DNA from: Chitinophagaceae bacterium
GTDB taxonomy: Bacteria > Bacteroidota > Bacteroidia > Chitinophagales > Chitinophagaceae
Length of the DNA stretch: 44,878 nt
Direction: 5' to 3'
NCBI GenBank assembly: GCA_023251255.1
Contig: JAHEZD010000044.1
Span: 1 to 44,878, forward strand
Positions 1-12,782 of the stretch are shown piece after piece; the stretch's first letter is position 1, and every line of letters begins with the position of its first letter. The translations under genes and the position numbers were made by a program. A model generated the notes under the pieces. The model saw nothing but the letters and a program-made list of their open reading frames with translations, did no database searches and was not told the DNA's origin.

Positions 1-1679
1 ACTACTTCCTGTTCCTTTTCTATGTACCGCTCATATTTAATTTGTATTTCTGCCTGTTCCAATGTTTCGTATGGTATATCCTTCAATGCTGTGGCCAACC
101 TTGGAACGGCTTTCATCATGGAAAGCAGATCAATATTTGGCCGGAGAATAATTTTTGCTGCCTTTTGTTTCTCGGTCAGTAAAGCGGTATTGATTCCTTC
201 AAAGTAGTGATTGATGTCTTCTGGCTCAATAACAAAGCTGGACAGCATGGATTTTATTTGCTCCACTTTTTCTTTTTTGGCTATTACCTTATCCATTCTT
301 TCCTGTGATGCAAGCCCCAACCTGTAGCTCAATTCTGTTAAACGCAGGTCTGCATTGTCCTGACGGAGCAGCGTCCTGTATTCTGCACGGCTGGTGAACA
401 TCCTGTAGGGCTCATCGGTTCCTTTACTAATCAGGTCGTCAATAAGCACCCCGATATACGCCTCATTTCTTTTCAATACCACAGGTTCCAAATTGCTGGC
501 TTTTTGGTGGGCATTGATTCCGGCCATTAAACCTTGGCAGGCTGCTTCTTCGTAACCAGTGGTTCCGTTAATTTGACCAGCAAAAAAAAGGTGCTGGATC
601 AGTTTGGTTTCCAGTGTGTAGGTAAGCTGCGTAGGTGGGAAGTAATCGTATTCTATGGCATAACCCGGCCTGAATATCTTACAGTTTTCAAATCCCGGAA
701 CTGTTCTGAGCGCTTGTACCTGCACTTCTTCGGGCAAGGAGGTGGAAAATCCGTTTACATAAATCTCCACCGTGTTCCAACCTTCCGGTTCAACAAACAA
801 TTGGTGCCTGTCCCTATCAGCAAAGCGGTTTATTTTATCTTCGATACTTGGGCAGTAACGGGGACCAACGCCTTCTATCCTACCTTGGTACATGGGACTT
901 CTATCAAATCCAGTTTTTAAAATGTCGTGTACCTGCTGATTGGTATAAGTGATATGGCAGCTCCTCTGCTGCGAGGGTTTTATTCTATCAATATCTAAAT
1001 AGGAGAATCCAACAATTTCATCATCCCCCTTCTGTTCTTCCATTTTACTGTAATCCAAGCTCCTAGCGTCTACCCTGGGTGGTGTGCCCGTTTTGAGGCG
1101 GTCGCTTTCAAATCCCAATTCAACCAGTTGTTCGGTTATCCCTGTCGCTGCTTTTTCGGAAATACGTCCACCACCCAACTTCTTTTCGCCAATATGGATA
1201 ACACCATTTAAGAAGGTGCCGCTGGTTACTACTACGGATTTGGATTCAATATGGTGGCCCAGTCCAGTAACAACCCCGCAGGCCCTGCCATCTTTAATAA
1301 TGATGGACTGTACCATATCCTGATAAAAATCGACATTGGGTGTCTGTTCCAGCATTTCCCTCCAAACAGTGGCAAATACCATTCTGTCATTCTGGGTTCT
1401 TGGACTCCACATGGCTGGCCCTTTGCTCCTGTTCAGCATCCTGAACTGGAGCATGCTCTTGTCACTGACAATGCCACTATACCCTCCCATGGCATCTATT
1501 TCACGAACAATTTGTCCCTTTGCAATTCCGCCCATGGCCGGATTGCAGCTCATTTGTGCTATGGTCTGCATATTCATGGTAATGAGCAGCACTTTGCTGC
1601 CCAAGTTTGCAGCAGCGGCAGCAGCTTCACAACCTGCATGTCCAGCACCAACCACTATAACATCGTATTTTGAAAACAT
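1..1679 (-). CDS. mnmG: tRNA uridine-5-carboxymethylaminomethyl modification enzyme MnmG (GidA), C-terminus cut off
   Basis: Reading leftwards from the ATG at 1677-1679 gives about 559 codons without a stop, running off the window edge. The N-terminus has the FAD-binding Rossmann signature VIVVGAGHAGCEAAAAAA, followed by family motifs such as CNPAMGGIAKGQIVREIDAM, TGTPPRVD, and AGQINGTTGYEEAACQG near residue 370. MnmG, with MnmE, installs the cmnm5 group on the wobble uridine of certain tRNAs, using FAD and methylene-tetrahydrofolate. The family is about 620 residues long, so roughly 60 C-terminal residues (part of the MnmE/tRNA-interacting domain) lie outside the window. In many bacteria this gene lies near oriC, which is relevant to the parS-like sites just upstream and the DnaA-box cluster at 10.2-10.6 kb. 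Identification is very secure. Confidence 0.97.
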   Translation of the reverse strand, partial: MFSKYDVIVVGAGHAGCEAAAAAANLGSKVLLITMNMQTIAQMSCNPAMGGIAKGQIVREIDAMGGYSGIVSDKSMLQFRMLNRSKGPAMWSPRTQNDRMVFATVWREMLEQTPNVDFYQDMVQSIIIKDGRACGVVTGLGHHIESKSVVVTSGTFLNGVIHIGEKKLGGGRISEKAATGITEQLVELGFESDRLKTGTPPRVDARSLDYSKMEEQKGDDEIVGFSYLDIDRIKPSQQRSCHITYTNQQVHDILKTGFDRSPMYQGRIEGVGPRYCPSIEDKINRFADRDRHQLFVEPEGWNTVEIYVNGFSTSLPEEVQVQALRTVPGFENCKIFRPGYAIEYDYFPPTQLTYTLETKLIQHLFFAGQINGTTGYEEAACQGLMAGINAHQKASNLEPVVLKRNEAYIGVLIDDLISKGTDEPYRMFTSRAEYRTLLRQDNADLRLTELSYRLGLASQERMDKVIAKKEKVEQIKSMLSSFVIEPEDINHYFEGINTALLTEKQKAAKIILRPNIDLLSMMKAVPRLATALKDIPYETLEQAEIQIKYERYIEKEQEV

Positions 1680-1683
1680 GGGG

Positions 1684-1691
1684 CAAAGATA
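1684..1691 (-). promoter_or_regulatory. TAnnTTTG -7-type element directly before mnmG
   Basis: On the minus strand this reads TATCTTTG, a full match to the Bacteroidota -7 consensus TAnnTTTG, only four bases (CCCC) before the mnmG ATG. No TTTG-like -33 element is found at the expected spacing. If it is functional, the transcript would be leaderless or nearly so; otherwise it is a chance match. Confidence 0.3.
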
Positions 1692-1706
1692 GTTTTCTAT
1701 TGGAAA

Positions 1707-1722
1707 GGTTTCCCGTGGAACA
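1707..1722. other. parS-like palindrome, copy 1 (degenerate)
   Basis: The 16-mer GGTTTCCCGTGGAACA resembles the ParB-binding parS consensus TGTTTCACGTGAAACA and its common variant TGTTCCACGTGGAACA. The right half (CGTGGAACA) matches the variant perfectly; positions 1 and 7 deviate. It lies between mnmG and ybeY, 30 bp from a second such site. ParB binding is inferred. Confidence 0.4.
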
Positions 1723-1752
1723 TACTTGTGCAACAGTTCCTTAGTGGATGAA

Positions 1753-1768
1753 TGTTCCACGTGTCACA
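1753..1768. other. parS-like palindrome, copy 2 (degenerate)
   Basis: The 16-mer TGTTCCACGTGTCACA matches the parS variant TGTTCCACGTGGAACA at 14 of 16 positions; the left half and the central CACGTG are perfect. It overlaps the stop codon of ybeY. Paired with copy 1 it may mark origin-proximal ParB loading, but neither copy is a perfect palindrome. Confidence 0.45.
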
Positions 1769-7720: not shown

Positions 7721-8755
7721 TTATACTTCCACTTTTATGGCAGAAAGCCCATTGCTGGCTGCTTGCGCCTCTGCTACTTTGGCCCTTATTTTAGCTTCAA
7801 TTTCATTGGCCAGTTCAGGATTGTCCCTCAATAATTGCTTTACCGAATCCCTTCCTTGACCAAGTTTGGTAGCCTCATAACTGAACCAGCTACCACTTTT
7901 ATTCACTATTCCCAGCTCCACACCCATATCAATAATCTCGCCGATTTTGCTGATTCCCTCCCCAAAAATAATATCAAATTCAGAAGTCCTAAAGGGTGGC
8001 GCTACTTTATTTTTTACAACTTTTACTTTTACACGGTTTCCAATTGCTTCGTCTCCGTCCTTAATCTGTGCCATTCTCCTGATATCCAAACGTACCGAAG
8101 CATAAAATTTCAATGCATTGCCACCGGTAGTGGTTTCAGGATTACCAAACATCACCCCAATTTTTTCACGTAGCTGGTTGATGAAAATACAAACAGTATT
8201 GGTTTTATTGATGGTAGCTGTAAGCTTGCGCAAAGCTTGGCTCATTAATCTCGCATGAAGGCCCATTTTACTGTCACCCATTTCCCCTTCCAATTCACTT
8301 TTTGGTACCAATGCCGCTACGGAATCTATTACTACCACATCCAGCGCACCTGAAAGTATTAACCTATCTGCAATTTCCAAAGCCTGCTCCCCGTAGTCAG
8401 GTTGTGAAATCAGCAGATTATCCACATCTACTCCTAACTTTTGGGCATAGCTGCTATCGAATGCGTGTTCCGCATCGATAAATGCACACATACCCCCCTT
8501 TTTTTGCGCTTCTGCAATAATATGGGTAGCAATAGTTGTTTTACCAGAGCTTTCTGGGCCATAAATTTCAACTATTCTTCCTTTGGGTATGCCACCAACT
8601 CCCAAAGCTATATCCAAACCAATGGAACCTGTACTAATCACTTCCATTTCCTTATCCGCCCTATCGCTCATTAACATCACACTCCCCTTACCATAGTCCT
8701 TATCTATTTTGTCCATGGTAAGTTTTAAGGCCTTCAATTTTTCTACGTTGCTCAT
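7721..8755 (-). CDS. recA: Recombinase RecA
   Basis: This 344-residue DNA strand-exchange and SOS co-protease has all hallmarks: the Walker A motif [28 protein letters not shown] (Walker B), [20 protein letters not shown] (the loop 2 region) and [14 protein letters not shown]. The length is typical. It starts with ATG at 8753-8755 and ends before the terminator shared with recQ. The upstream gap (8756-9095) contains a cluster of GTTACA half-sites described separately. A perfect 9-mer DnaA box at 8418-8426 falls inside the coding region and is probably coincidental. Confidence 0.98.
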
Positions 8756-9095: not shown

Positions 9096-10103
9096 TCATA
9101 CAATCAATCCAGCTTTCTTGCTAATTTCCATCATCCTTTCCATTGGTTTCAAAGCTGCTAAACGTAAGTTTTCATCCATTTTTATTTCCGGTTGCTCGTA
9201 CATCATGCATAAATACAGTTTTTCAAGGGTATTCAGCTTCATGTGGGGGCAATCGTTGCAAGCACAGGAGTTATTTGGAGGTGCCGGTATGAAGGTCTTG
9301 TTAGGGCTGGCTTGCTGCATTTTGTGGAGTATGCCCGTTTCCGTAGCTACAATAAATTCCAATGCTTCATTTTCCTGTGAATATTTCAGCAACTGGGTAG
9401 TGCTTCCAATAAAGTCTGCAACTGCCAACAATGCTTCCTCACATTCAGGATGGGCAATAAATTTTGATTTTGGATGCCTAATCTTCAATTTGGTAATTTT
9501 CTCCAGACTGAAAATCTCATGCACCATACAGGCACCGTTCCACAATACCATGCTCCTGCCTGTCTTCTTGTTCAGGTAAGCACCGAGGTTTTTATCCGGC
9601 GCAAAAATGATTGGCTGATTTTCGGGTATGCTTTCGATTATTTTTTCTGCATTGCCGCTAGTACAGATAATATCGCTAAGCGCTTTTATTTCTGCGCTGC
9701 AATTAATATAGCTAATTACCAAATGGTCGGGATGCTTTTCCTTGAATACTTTAAATAAAGGTGCTGGGGCACTATCGGCTAACGAACAACCAGCTTTTAA
9801 GTCGGGCAGCAGCACTTTTTTGGAAGGGTTCAATATTTTGGCCGTTTCTGCCATGAAGTGGACCCCGGCAAAAACAATGATATCCGCATTCGTCTGTGCA
9901 GCCTTCTGTGCTAACCCTAAGCTATCCCCAATATAATCCGCCACATCCTGAATATCCGGTTCCTGGTAATAGTGCGCCAGCAACACGATATTTTTTTCCT
10001 TCTTCAATCTTTCAATCTCTGCAAACAAATCAATGTGTACATCTACTTCAAGGTCAAGGAATCCTTTTTCAAAAATTTTGTCTTTTGCTATGTTGATATC
10101 CAT
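9096..10103 (-). CDS. nadA: Quinolinate synthase NadA
   Basis: This 335-residue [4Fe-4S] enzyme condenses iminoaspartate with dihydroxyacetone phosphate to quinolinate in de novo NAD synthesis. Motifs include [20 protein letters not shown], the ligand cysteine in [20 protein letters not shown], the ligand cysteine in WNGACMVHE, and the C-terminal NDCPHMKL preceded by further cysteines. The length is typical of the family. nadB and nadC, its usual partners, are not in the window, but nadD is, 6 kb away. The gene is transcribed away from the DnaA-box-rich gap at 10.1-10.7 kb. Confidence 0.96.
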
Positions 10104-10178
10104 TGTAATAGTATTTAATAATACCTATTTATATAAACACCTATTACTATTAAGGCTGTTCATATCGGGATATCTTAT

Positions 10179-10611
10179 TTATCCCCACAGGCCAAAGTTA
10201 ATTACTGATAGGCTTATACACTTTAACTAACAATAATTTCACAAACACCTTATCAATGGTATAAAGCATTTGAATGGCTTTTTACACAATTGTGGATGAT
10301 AGTTGTTCTTTAATCCACACCTAGCTATTCACTAGCTATCCACTGTTAACGAAGAGCCTGTAATTGGTGCGGTATTAAGGGCTGTGGCCAAAAGCTGCCA
10401 AAGCTGCCATAATTGTTCCACCACTATCCACTTTTTTATTTTTGAAAATCTGGGTTATCAACTTTATTGATGGATTGTTAACATAGTAGTGTGAATAATA
10501 GAATCCGCATGTTTTTTTGAAAAAAATATAAATGATGAAATAATAGAAAAGCGGCCCGTTTCACCAAACTTAGAATATAGGCAGCAAGCGGATTTTAGCT
10601 TGTTTTCCACA
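10179..10611. other. Candidate replication origin (oriC): cluster of DnaA-box-like 9-mers
   Basis: The 573-bp gap between nadA and the PpiD-like gene has no supportable ORF. It holds four 9-mers with one mismatch to TTATCCACA: TTATCCCCA (10179-10187), TGTGGATGA (10291-10299, minus strand), TAATCCACA (10311-10319) and TTTTCCACA (10603-10611). Two-mismatch copies lie at 10336-10344 and 10424-10432 (both CTATCCACT), 10455-10463 and 10383-10391. An A/T-rich stretch at about 10505-10552 could serve as an unwinding element. The flanking genes point away from the gap on both sides. The origin assignment is inferred from box clustering; dnaA itself is not here. Confidence 0.5.
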
Positions 10612-10612
10612 A

Positions 10613-10643
10613 TTTGTTCAATAACTATATTCCCCTATTTTTG
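10613..10643 (+). promoter_or_regulatory. Promoter of the PpiD-like gene (-33 TTTG / -7 TAnnTTTG)
   Basis: TTTG at 10613-10616 and TATTTTTG at 10636-10643 are separated by 19 bases, which is the spacing described for Bacteroidota sigma-ABfr promoters. Transcription would start near 10650, leaving a leader of roughly 25-30 bases. The -33 element begins two bases after the last DnaA-box-like 9-mer, so DnaA binding there could interfere with this promoter. Confidence 0.65.
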
Positions 10644-10676
10644 CCATCCTTAAAACTTACTATTAATTAAACGATT

Positions 10677-12782
10677 ATGTCTGTTATTCAAAGTATCAGG
10701 GACAGGGGAGCATGGATAATGCTTATCTTGATTGCCTTAGCTCTTATTGCATTTATATTACAGGATGGTTTAGGCCGTGGCCGGGGAAGTAGCATTTTCA
10801 GCAATACCACCAATGTTGGCTCAGTAAATGGTATAAAGATTACCAAGGAAGATTTTGATGCCAAACTTACCTTATACAGTCGTGGGCAGTCCAAGGATGC
10901 CATTATACCGCAGTTATGGAACCAGGAAGTACAGACTATTTTGCAACAGCAGGAGTACGATAAACTTGGCCTGGTTGTTAGCAGCAAGGAATTGGCAGAT
11001 TTCTTTTATAGCCCACAATCACCCTTGATGAGGGAAAAGGAATTCCAGGATGATAAAGGTCAATTGGACCCATCCAAGGTTCAGCAATGGTTTTCTGAAC
11101 TTAAAAAACCCAAGAATGCTGAAAATACAAAAAGGATAATTGAGCAAGTTATAGATCCTGCTACACAGCAATTGTTGAGCAGCAAGTACCAAAACCTTAT
11201 CCAGCAATCAGCGTATGTACCTACTTGGTTGATTGAAAAGCAAAAAGCAGACAATGCGGCCATTTCCTCTATTTCTTATGTGTATGTTCCTTATAGTTCC
11301 ATTGTTGACAGCACCATTAAAGTAAGCGATGATGAAATAATGGCCTATGTAAGAAAACATCCCAAGAATTTCGAGAAAGAAGAAGAAACAAGGTCGTTCT
11401 CTTATGTAAGTTTTGATGCTTCTGCAAGTGCTGCTGATAGCGCTAACGTGTACAATCAATTGCTAACTGAAAAAAATGAATTTGCCGCATCAACTGATGT
11501 TAAGCAATTCTTTGCGAAGGCAAACAGTGAAATGCCTTATTATGACGGTTACATTGGTAAAAAACAAATTCAACAATCCATAAAAGACACATTGTTTAAG
11601 TTGGCCCCAGGTCAAACATTTGGCCCCTATGTGGATGGCAAGAACTATGTAGTAGCCAAAATGGTGGGCATCAAACAGTTTCCAGATACTGCCAAAGTGA
11701 GGCATATATTGGTTTCAACGCACCAAAGGGACCAGTCCGGTGGTGGATTAATGAGGGTTAGGGAAGATTCTTCAGCTAAGAAAATAATAGATTCTGTAGC
11801 TGACTTCATTGCTAAAGGAGCCAAATGGGATTCTATATGCAATAAATATTCTGAAGATCAAGGAAGCAAGGAGAAAGGCGGTGTGTATGATAATTTTGTT
11901 ACTGGGGGTATGGTTCCTGAATTCAATGACTTTTCTTTTGAAGGAAAGATTGGGGAAAGGAAAATAGTTAAAACCGATTTCGGTTACCACCTTATAGAAA
12001 TCCTTTCGCAAAAAGGTAGCCAACCAGCTTATAAAATTGCCTATTTGGCAAAACCAATTATTATCAGCAATGAAACAGTTGGTGCAGCCAGTACGGCGGC
12101 ATTGCAATTTGCTTCCCAAGCAAAAAACAAGTCGCAGTTTGATGAGGCTGCCAAAAAAATAAACAAAACTGTTTTATCCAGTCAGGAAATAAAGGAAGGC
12201 GAATTTAGCATACCTGTTTTTGGACAGGAACCTAGCAGAAGCATTATACGTTGGTTGTATGAAAACGATTTAGGAACTGTTAGCGAGCCAACAGAGGTAG
12301 GAGAGAAATATATAGTATCCGTTATAACCAGTATTAGCCCTAAGGGATTGCTTTCCGTAAATGAAGCCAGGCCTAGGGTGGAAGGTTTTGTGAAAAAAGA
12401 AAAGAAAGCAAAACAGATTATCGAAAGCAAGTTCAAGGGAAATACTTTGGAATCATTTGCAGCATCTGCCGGTGTAGGCGTTCAAAAGGCCGACAGCTTA
12501 AGCTTCGCCAATCCAAGTGCACCAGCTTTTGGCGGCTATGATTTAAAGTTATTGGGTGCGTCTTTCAATAAGGAAATGCAAGGAAAGGTAACAGAACCTA
12601 TAGCAGGAAGCGAAGGCGTAATGGCGTTGAAAGTGGAATCAATAGGTGCAAAGCCAACAGTACAGGATAATGAAAGTATAAAACAGAACCTTTTACAGAG
12701 TGCCAGAAATGCAGCACAGAGAGGTAGCGGTGCACTGAGAAAAGCAGCTACCATAAAAGACTACAGAATGAAGTTCTATTAA
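10677..12782 (+). CDS. Membrane-anchored peptidyl-prolyl cis-trans isomerase, PpiD/SurA type
   Basis: This 701-residue periplasmic foldase is tethered by one N-terminal transmembrane helix (about residues 13-32, WIMLILIALALIAFILQDG). A SurA_N-like chaperone region follows. The parvulin (rotamase) domain lies at about residues 340-450, starting RHILVSTHQ and ending GGVYDNF, GGMVPEFNDFSFEGKIGE, TDFGYHLIEIL. A second, poorly conserved rotamase-like segment may follow. This layout matches PpiD, which helps outer-membrane and secreted proteins fold after Sec export. It has its own well-formed promoter and a terminator at 12804. PpiD is preferred over SurA because of the uncleaved anchor. Confidence 0.88.
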   Translation: MSVIQSIRDRGAWIMLILIALALIAFILQDGLGRGRGSSIFSNTTNVGSVNGIKITKEDFDAKLTLYSRGQSKDAIIPQLWNQEVQTILQQQEYDKLGLVVSSKELADFFYSPQSPLMREKEFQDDKGQLDPSKVQQWFSELKKPKNAENTKRIIEQVIDPATQQLLSSKYQNLIQQSAYVPTWLIEKQKADNAAISSISYVYVPYSSIVDSTIKVSDDEIMAYVRKHPKNFEKEEETRSFSYVSFDASASAADSANVYNQLLTEKNEFAASTDVKQFFAKANSEMPYYDGYIGKKQIQQSIKDTLFKLAPGQTFGPYVDGKNYVVAKMVGIKQFPDTAKVRHILVSTHQRDQSGGGLMRVREDSSAKKIIDSVADFIAKGAKWDSICNKYSEDQGSKEKGGVYDNFVTGGMVPEFNDFSFEGKIGERKIVKTDFGYHLIEILSQKGSQPAYKIAYLAKPIIISNETVGAASTAALQFASQAKNKSQFDEAAKKINKTVLSSQEIKEGEFSIPVFGQEPSRSIIRWLYENDLGTVSEPTEVGEKYIVSVITSISPKGLLSVNEARPRVEGFVKKEKKAKQIIESKFKGNTLESFAASAGVGVQKADSLSFANPSAPAFGGYDLKLLGASFNKEMQGKVTEPIAGSEGVMALKVESIGAKPTVQDNESIKQNLLQSARNAAQRGSGALRKAATIKDYRMKFY

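Follow-up and report, generated by a model that had tools for sequence, protein, structure and literature searches.

Where a bacterial replication origin lies away from dnaA, its location usually rests on prediction. In the available text of PMC8287927, the rule for a basal unwinding system (BUS) asks for three or more 3'-NAN-5' triplets no further than 16 bp from a DnaA box, and the BUS score of Escherichia coli is termed relatively weak. In Bacillus subtilis, DnaA protomers capture the two leading bases of every triplet between them, with a preference for 3'-GA-5' (PMC10721633, available part). The literature searched contained no origin at nadA in Chitinophagaceae, although DoriC and the supplement of PMC8287927 may hold predictions, and no DnaA-trio in Bacteroidetes was found in it. 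Here, a stretch of 44,878 nucleotides from a Chitinophagaceae bacterium (the window) was analysed together with its relatives. The sequence comparisons indicate that the gap between nadA and a ppiD-like gene is very probably (probability of about 0.93) the chromosomal origin, oriC, which would be served by a DnaA encoded elsewhere. A preliminary description had proposed the gap as a candidate replication origin, and this proposal was supported by the cluster of boxes, the skew switch of the relatives, a conserved core and the closeness of parS and mnmG. It was refined in two respects: the core was placed on the nadA side, and the box beside ppiD appears promoter-like.

DnaA boxes in the gap between nadA and ppiD

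A box was defined as a 9-mer within one mismatch of TTATCCACA on either strand, and a threshold of two mismatches was also scored. The gap, its neighbours and its boxes are as follows.

10104..10676, no strand: nadA-ppiD intergenic gap, 573 bp, the proposed oriC with the box cluster
9096..10103, minus: nadA, quinolinate synthase (PF02445, E 4.9e-122), constant neighbour of the core
10677..12782, plus: ppiD-like gene with SurA_N_2 and rotamase domains (SurA/PpiD-like)
10179..10187, plus: DnaA box TTATCCCCA, 1 mismatch; an identical box stands at the equivalent place in several relatives
10291..10299, minus: DnaA box TCATCCACA, 1 mismatch
10311..10319, plus: DnaA box TAATCCACA, 1 mismatch
10336..10344, plus: box-like CTATCCACT, 2 mismatches, sharing bases with a tandem repeat (unit of 11 bp) at 10321-10342
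10424..10432, plus: second copy of box-like CTATCCACT, 2 mismatches
10490..10498, minus: DnaA box TTATTCACA, 1 mismatch
10603..10611, plus: DnaA box TTTTCCACA, 1 mismatch, ending 1 bp before the TTTG that belongs to the putative ppiD promoter

The gap contained five boxes within one mismatch of TTATCCACA and eleven 9-mers within two mismatches, while a first-order Markov model of the gap predicted 0.24 and 2.65, respectively, and none of 1000 simulations reached the observed number at either threshold. At both thresholds, the gap was the box-densest place in the window. The excess over chance claimed in the preliminary description was therefore borne out, but its count of four one-mismatch boxes was not, the number being five; the further two-mismatch copies, the A/T-rich character (GC content of 0.325 in the gap vs 0.411 in the window) and the divergent flanking genes, with nadA on the minus strand and the ppiD-like rotamase gene on the plus strand, were all found as described. 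In control DNA, which consisted of 1.98 Mb of stretches sampled from five relatives, 2 of the 2772 windows of 700 bp held three boxes and none held more. The gap was free of any perfect TTATCCACA box, and the perfect box that had been noted as a chance occurrence within recA was located at 8418. Throughout the own genome, a two-box pattern gave 63 scattered and uninformative matches vs 50 for the reversed control, and perfect boxes alone gave 52 vs 54, none of them within the gap. Unlike the own genome, three relatives carried more perfect boxes than reversed-control matches (G239, 60/35; G017, 73/49; G182, 69/28). The tandem repeat at 10321-10342, CTAGCTATYCA, bears box-like sites.

The ppiD-like protein had its nearest named relative in Sediminibacterium roseum (51% identity), and the further named loci were mostly titled Chitinophagaceae, Ferruginibacter or Terrimonas; nadA was found in the flank of 23 of the 80 named ppiD loci. 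When 78 named loci were read within 800 bp upstream of ppiD, at least three boxes were present in 13, all among the 28 loci counted to Chitinophagaceae, the other 15 of which had fewer than three. Among the 50 loci outside Chitinophagaceae, mostly Flavobacteriaceae, 47 had no box upstream of ppiD and three had one. This apparently poor conservation was dropped as a conclusion once nadA served as the anchor. The start of nadA could be located in 69 of the 89 sources (window included; 20 dropped), and up to 700 bp upstream of it, a length fully available in 34, at least one box was present in 69/69 loci, at least two in 64/69 and at least three in 47/69. The comparison of the gap with related Chitinophagaceae, proposed in the preliminary description, thus revealed a box cluster conserved upstream of nadA. 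Upstream of ppiD, 50 records were compared, with the window as one of them and G172 counted twice: the 34,475 bp closest to ppiD, taken as 700 bp per record, had 142 boxes (2.88 per 700 bp), and the 88,881 bp beyond had 47 (0.37 per 700 bp). In 400 kb of G172, two other stretches of 600 bp matched the three boxes of the origin. As looked for in an oriC, the cluster exceeded chance in the gap simulations, against the control windows and among the relatives.

Two records among the sources were peculiar. The locus titled Streptomyces griseus MAG (L007) carried a nadA of 74% identity and a nadA-ppiD neighbourhood of the Chitinophagaceae type, and is probably a mislabelled bin. The nadA match at G201:C1:4267911-4268907 came in two overlapping pieces, resembling a frameshift.

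GC skew and the positions of parS, mnmG and dnaA

The own assembly comprised 6.1 Mb in 188 contigs, one of which (C123) is the window, and skew could be read there in the window alone, with the cumulative G-C minimum at 10672. Because of this fragmentation, GC skew was tested in relatives, using twenty 20-kb stretches around each of five single-contig genomes. Skew was positive to the right of ppiD and negative to its left in 8/10 and 9/10 stretches of G172, 10/10 and 8/10 of G211, 9/10 and 9/9 of G099 (one N stretch dropped), 7/10 and 9/10 of G017 (in contig direction), and 9/10 and 9/10 of G239. The switch lay at nadA-ppiD in G172, G211 and G099. In G017 it was placed within 113 kb of ppiD, a resolution at which ppiD and nadA are indistinguishable, and in G239 it was bracketed by +141 and +422 kb relative to ppiD, towards nadA (+254 kb), a placement that rests on one 20-kb stretch. 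The opposite switch was found roughly half a chromosome off, and the stretches flanking dnaA in G172, G211 and G099 had no skew switch between them.

In G172, cumulative skew over 400 contiguous kb was lowest 84 bp inside ppiD; in G184, the one sampled genome of the same genus as the window, the lowest point of 160 kb was not at ppiD but 60 kb to its left. The skew analysis suggested in the preliminary description, run on relatives, thus gave the negative-to-positive switch of an oriC at nadA-ppiD in G172, G211 and G099, with G184 unsupportive. Over short ranges, skew in the named relatives was noisy: among 18 of them, read to at most 10 kb per side (5 of 23 were dropped, for length or by choice), the left side was negative in 16, the right side positive in 12, and the minimum within 1 kb of ppiD in 2. 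The corresponding numbers for 36 control loci outside the family were 3, 33 and 1. Twelve further genomes were read in 15-kb stretches around nadA, and in 2 of them the minimum lay at most 1 kb upstream of this gene.

Left of the gap, the window carries the following features.

3..1760, minus: mnmG, cut at the left edge of the window; open frame, translation read by eye
1753..1768, plus: parS-like site TGTTCCACGTGTCACA, within 1 mismatch of TGTTNCACGTGNAACA
1707..1722: weaker parS-like site, like 1753-1768 just upstream of mnmG

The parS-like sites were called with TGTTNCACGTGNAACA, which we take to be the parS consensus. The own 6.1-Mb genome had a single place within one mismatch of it, and this place lay in the window, 8.4 kb from the first box; since the reversed control pattern also matched once, the place of this site is informative and its number is not. 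Exact parS sites numbered 21 in 12 of the 24 genomes and, as would be sought near an oriC, all 21 lay within 16.5 kb of nadA, while the reversed control pattern matched at one place (G100) in those 24 genomes. The other 12 of the 24 genomes had no exact parS site. In all 24 genomes, mnmG lay within 17 kb of nadA. The mnmG match at G092:C1:5559921-5561767 was in two overlapping pieces, resembling a frameshift. The distance between nadA and dnaA was 394 kb to 3.0 Mb in 24/24 genomes, and the one DnaA match of the own genome above the family cut-off was on another contig (G000:C16), so that the adjacency to dnaA of a dnaA-linked origin was found neither in the 24 genomes nor in the own one. Our results agree with the preliminary description, which had placed mnmG and parS-like sites about 8.5 kb away and dnaA apart from the window.

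Both genes were placed in 18 single-contig genomes: in 11, nadA and ppiD lay within 0.8 kb of each other, and in the other 7 the distance was 28-543 kb. Six of these seven, all except G239, were read on the nadA side, and the 800 bp upstream of nadA held 3 boxes in G188, 6 in G021, 5 in G103, 12 in G017, 6 in G186 and 6 in G100. Genomes without a listed place for ppiD gave 8 (G004), 5 (G092), 9 (G182), 3 (G098), 2 (G185) and 2 (G136). In G017, which has 73 perfect boxes in all, 5 were concentrated within 208 bp beside nadA, forming its largest perfect-box cluster. In G239 no perfect box was found near nadA; both of its parS sites were 5 kb from nadA, with ppiD about 250 kb away, and in G188 parS lay within 16.5 kb of nadA, with ppiD about 180 kb away. 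Judged from these gene positions, where ppiD has moved off, boxes, parS and mnmG stay with nadA.

The core beside nadA and the box of ppiD

The nadA side of the gap contains the following elements.

10102..10151, no strand: AT-rich stretch by the nadA start, candidate unwinding element, overlapping the triplet run
10141..10152, plus: triplet run CTATTACTATTA, DnaA-trio-like, giving AAT TAT CAT TAT in the 3'->5' direction starting at the box, base 10153 included
10153..10156, plus: spacer between triplets and box (A, then GGC), G/C-rich in most of the 66 core rows
10157..10165, minus: core-proximal box position, degenerate, ATATGAACA, 3 mismatches in the window
10165..10173, minus: second co-oriented box position, degenerate, ATATCCCGA, 3 mismatches; TTATCCCGA in a number of relatives

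The order common to the relatives, going away from nadA, was an AT-rich stretch, the triplets, about three mostly G/C bases and a minus-strand DnaA box, often with a second co-oriented box-like 9-mer next to it. By nearest-neighbour energies, the stretch at 10102-10151 was the second weakest of 50 bp in the window, and the relatives were AT-rich here too; an easily opened AT-rich stretch beside the boxes, as looked for in an oriC, is thus predicted at this place. The run of four [CT]TA occurred once in the window, at 10141-10152, and sits 38-49 bp upstream of nadA. The pattern TA.TA.TA.TA followed by TGT[GT], at most 230 bp from nadA, was present in 63 of the 69 loci, window included, vs 0.0005 expected per locus from control DNA, although these loci share ancestry and the counts are not independent. 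Of the 69 rows, 66 aligned on the core with a BUS-like order and register, and all 66 had at least four in-register NAN triplets, the pattern that picked them itself requiring at least two triplets and C or T in the run. Since this demand partly builds in the base counts, they were repeated with a neutral pattern allowing any base between the TA steps. The first base was then C or T in 186/189 of the inner three triplets, and G in 26/63 rows in the box-proximal triplet. The core-proximal box position had at most two mismatches in 45/66 core rows, and in 57/66 core rows of the relatives the spacer range contained a co-oriented box of two mismatches or fewer.

The window itself shows at least three 3'-NAN-5' triplets near a box, AAT TAT CAT TAT lying 3 bp from the degenerate box position, with no co-oriented box of at most two mismatches within 16 bp of them. 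It departs from the BUS rule by its letter because the adjacent box positions, the best co-oriented ones, carry three mismatches. From the triplet run to the start of TTATCCCCA, the box on the other strand, the distance is 26 bp. The consensus triplet 3'-GAT-5' was likewise absent, and the inner triplets were almost all pyrimidine-first in the 63 rows of the neutral pattern. An initial doubt about the orientation of the run was not upheld: on the strand whose 5'->3' direction leads to the box, the triplets read TAC/TAT, which means that just the last letter differs from TAG. Taken from the alignments, the origin core occupies the part of the gap next to nadA, and its predicted layout is of the BUS type, with mostly pyrimidine-first triplets replacing 3'-GAT-5'. 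About 35-40 bp to the right of the core box, CAAAGTTAA (10193-10201) is conserved in many relatives and is possibly part of the nadA promoter.

In the proposed mechanism, DnaA would bind the boxes to the right of the core and oligomerise towards nadA, where it would capture the strand with the triplet run at 10141-10152 and open the AT-rich stretch at 10102-10151. The helicase would be loaded at this same AT-rich stretch, and two forks would depart, leftwards through nadA and rightwards through ppiD.

At the other end of the gap, one further element adjoins the last box.

10613..10643, plus: putative ppiD promoter of Bacteroidota type, TTTG (10613-10616), 19-bp spacer, TATTTTTG (10636-10643)

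The putative promoter was called from what we take to be the Bacteroidota promoter consensus. A loose form of it, TTTK-N17-21-TAnnTTTG, was present upstream of ppiD in 41/49 loci, and a one-mismatch box at -105 to -55 of ppiD in 40/49. TTTTCCACA was kept at the ppiD promoter in all four g21 genomes with ppiD away from nadA (L118, L119, L124, L125), in which the two genes are 28-254 kb apart; the box of L118 starts at -63 of ppiD and hence is outside the 40/49. It was not kept there in any of the three g17 genomes (L115-L117), among which L117 has TTATCCAAA further up. Since the box at 10603 stays with ppiD in 4/4 separated g21 genomes, it was assigned mainly to the ppiD promoter, and we infer that it belongs to the control of ppiD more than to initiation. 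Within 10603-10643, TT[T/A]TCCACA stands one base from TTTG, which may mean control of ppiD by DnaA.

Alternative readings and known systems

Several other explanations of the locus were weighed against an origin in the gap. The boxes could form a DnaA-controlled regulatory region of nadA and ppiD or a site titrating DnaA, with the true origin some kilobases off, for example near mnmG and parS. The box at 10603, abutting the conserved putative ppiD promoter, fits such a role, and skew resolves tens to hundreds of kilobases in most genomes; set against this, the 400-kb minimum of G172 lies 84 bp into ppiD, conserved triplets, G/C spacer and boxes stand together at nadA, and the largest perfect-box cluster of G017 is at nadA, so that we consider this explanation improbable. 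It is very improbable that the family origin is at nadA but has moved in this species, leaving the gap as a remnant. The core-proximal boxes of the window are indeed degraded to three mismatches, and G184 of the same genus is without a local skew minimum, but five one-mismatch boxes, the triplet run and the spacer have been retained, the only one-mismatch parS-like site of the genome is 8.4 kb off, and the skew minimum of the window is at 10672, within the gap. An effect of chance or composition in A/T-rich intergenic DNA can be drawn from the window as a whole, where 21 one-mismatch boxes were counted vs 15.3 expected and 5 of 100 shuffles reached 21; for the gap it was refuted by the simulations at gap composition, none of which reached five, and by the conservation across genera, and it deserves practically no credence.

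A narrower objection accepts the gap as the origin and takes the triplet element for a promoter or leader of nadA with no role in unwinding. Its distance of 38-49 bp from nadA would put it in the promoter region, and no description of DnaA recognising triplets that begin with a pyrimidine was found in the available parts of the literature searched. This objection appears unlikely in view of the BUS-like order and register of triplets, spacer and box, which recur in 66/69 rows inside the box cluster. With the gap read as oriC and the triplets as part of its core, a tentative model for the Chitinophagaceae can be put forward, although we would sooner doubt it than rely on it: a variant BUS with 3'-YAT-5' triplets, read by an altered base-capture pocket of DnaA, may form a module anchored at nadA, from which ppiD and its promoter box are free to leave.

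Boxes, skew, parS, mnmG and the conserved core converge on one place across many genera, and the core was narrowed to tens of bases. A fixed landmark upstream of nadA would help to orient genomes of this kind and to estimate growth from read coverage, and the locus offers a concrete test case of whether base capture by DnaA tolerates pyrimidine-first triplets.

Compared with known systems, the core resembles the BUS of B. subtilis in the order of DnaA box, short G/C spacer and triplet repeat and in the kept middle A of the triplets. Two co-oriented boxes lie by the triplets in B. subtilis (PMC10721633, available part), and box-like 9-mers are so placed in a number of the relatives. In contrast to B. 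subtilis, the origin here is not beside dnaA, and most triplets begin with C or T, whereas G is preferred there (3'-GAT-5'; available parts of PMC8287927 and PMC10721633). The oriC of Thermotoga maritima, described in the accessible text of PMC10316083 as TTATT, extended trio, DnaA-trio, GC-rich stretch and box 1, likewise lines up an unwinding element, triplets, a G/C-rich spacer and a box in the same strand sense; three TAG repeats are needed there for single-strand binding, whereas TAC/TAT is found here. Blattabacterium Bge, of the same phylum, has a predicted origin that was also located by GC skew, but its genome is without dnaA or a box cluster and the origin was placed in dapB (PMC2768785, as far as the available part describes it). 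The oriC of E. coli, like the one proposed here, is apart from dnaA (PMC8287927, available text) and linked to mnmG/gidA (PMC10225481, available text); it differs in its neighbours, since here nadA and ppiD flank the origin and mnmG lies 3.5-16.5 kb from nadA in the relatives. Set beside these systems, the locus is very probably an ordinary DnaA-type chromosomal origin, at a nadA location not found described in the literature searched and with an unusual triplet composition.
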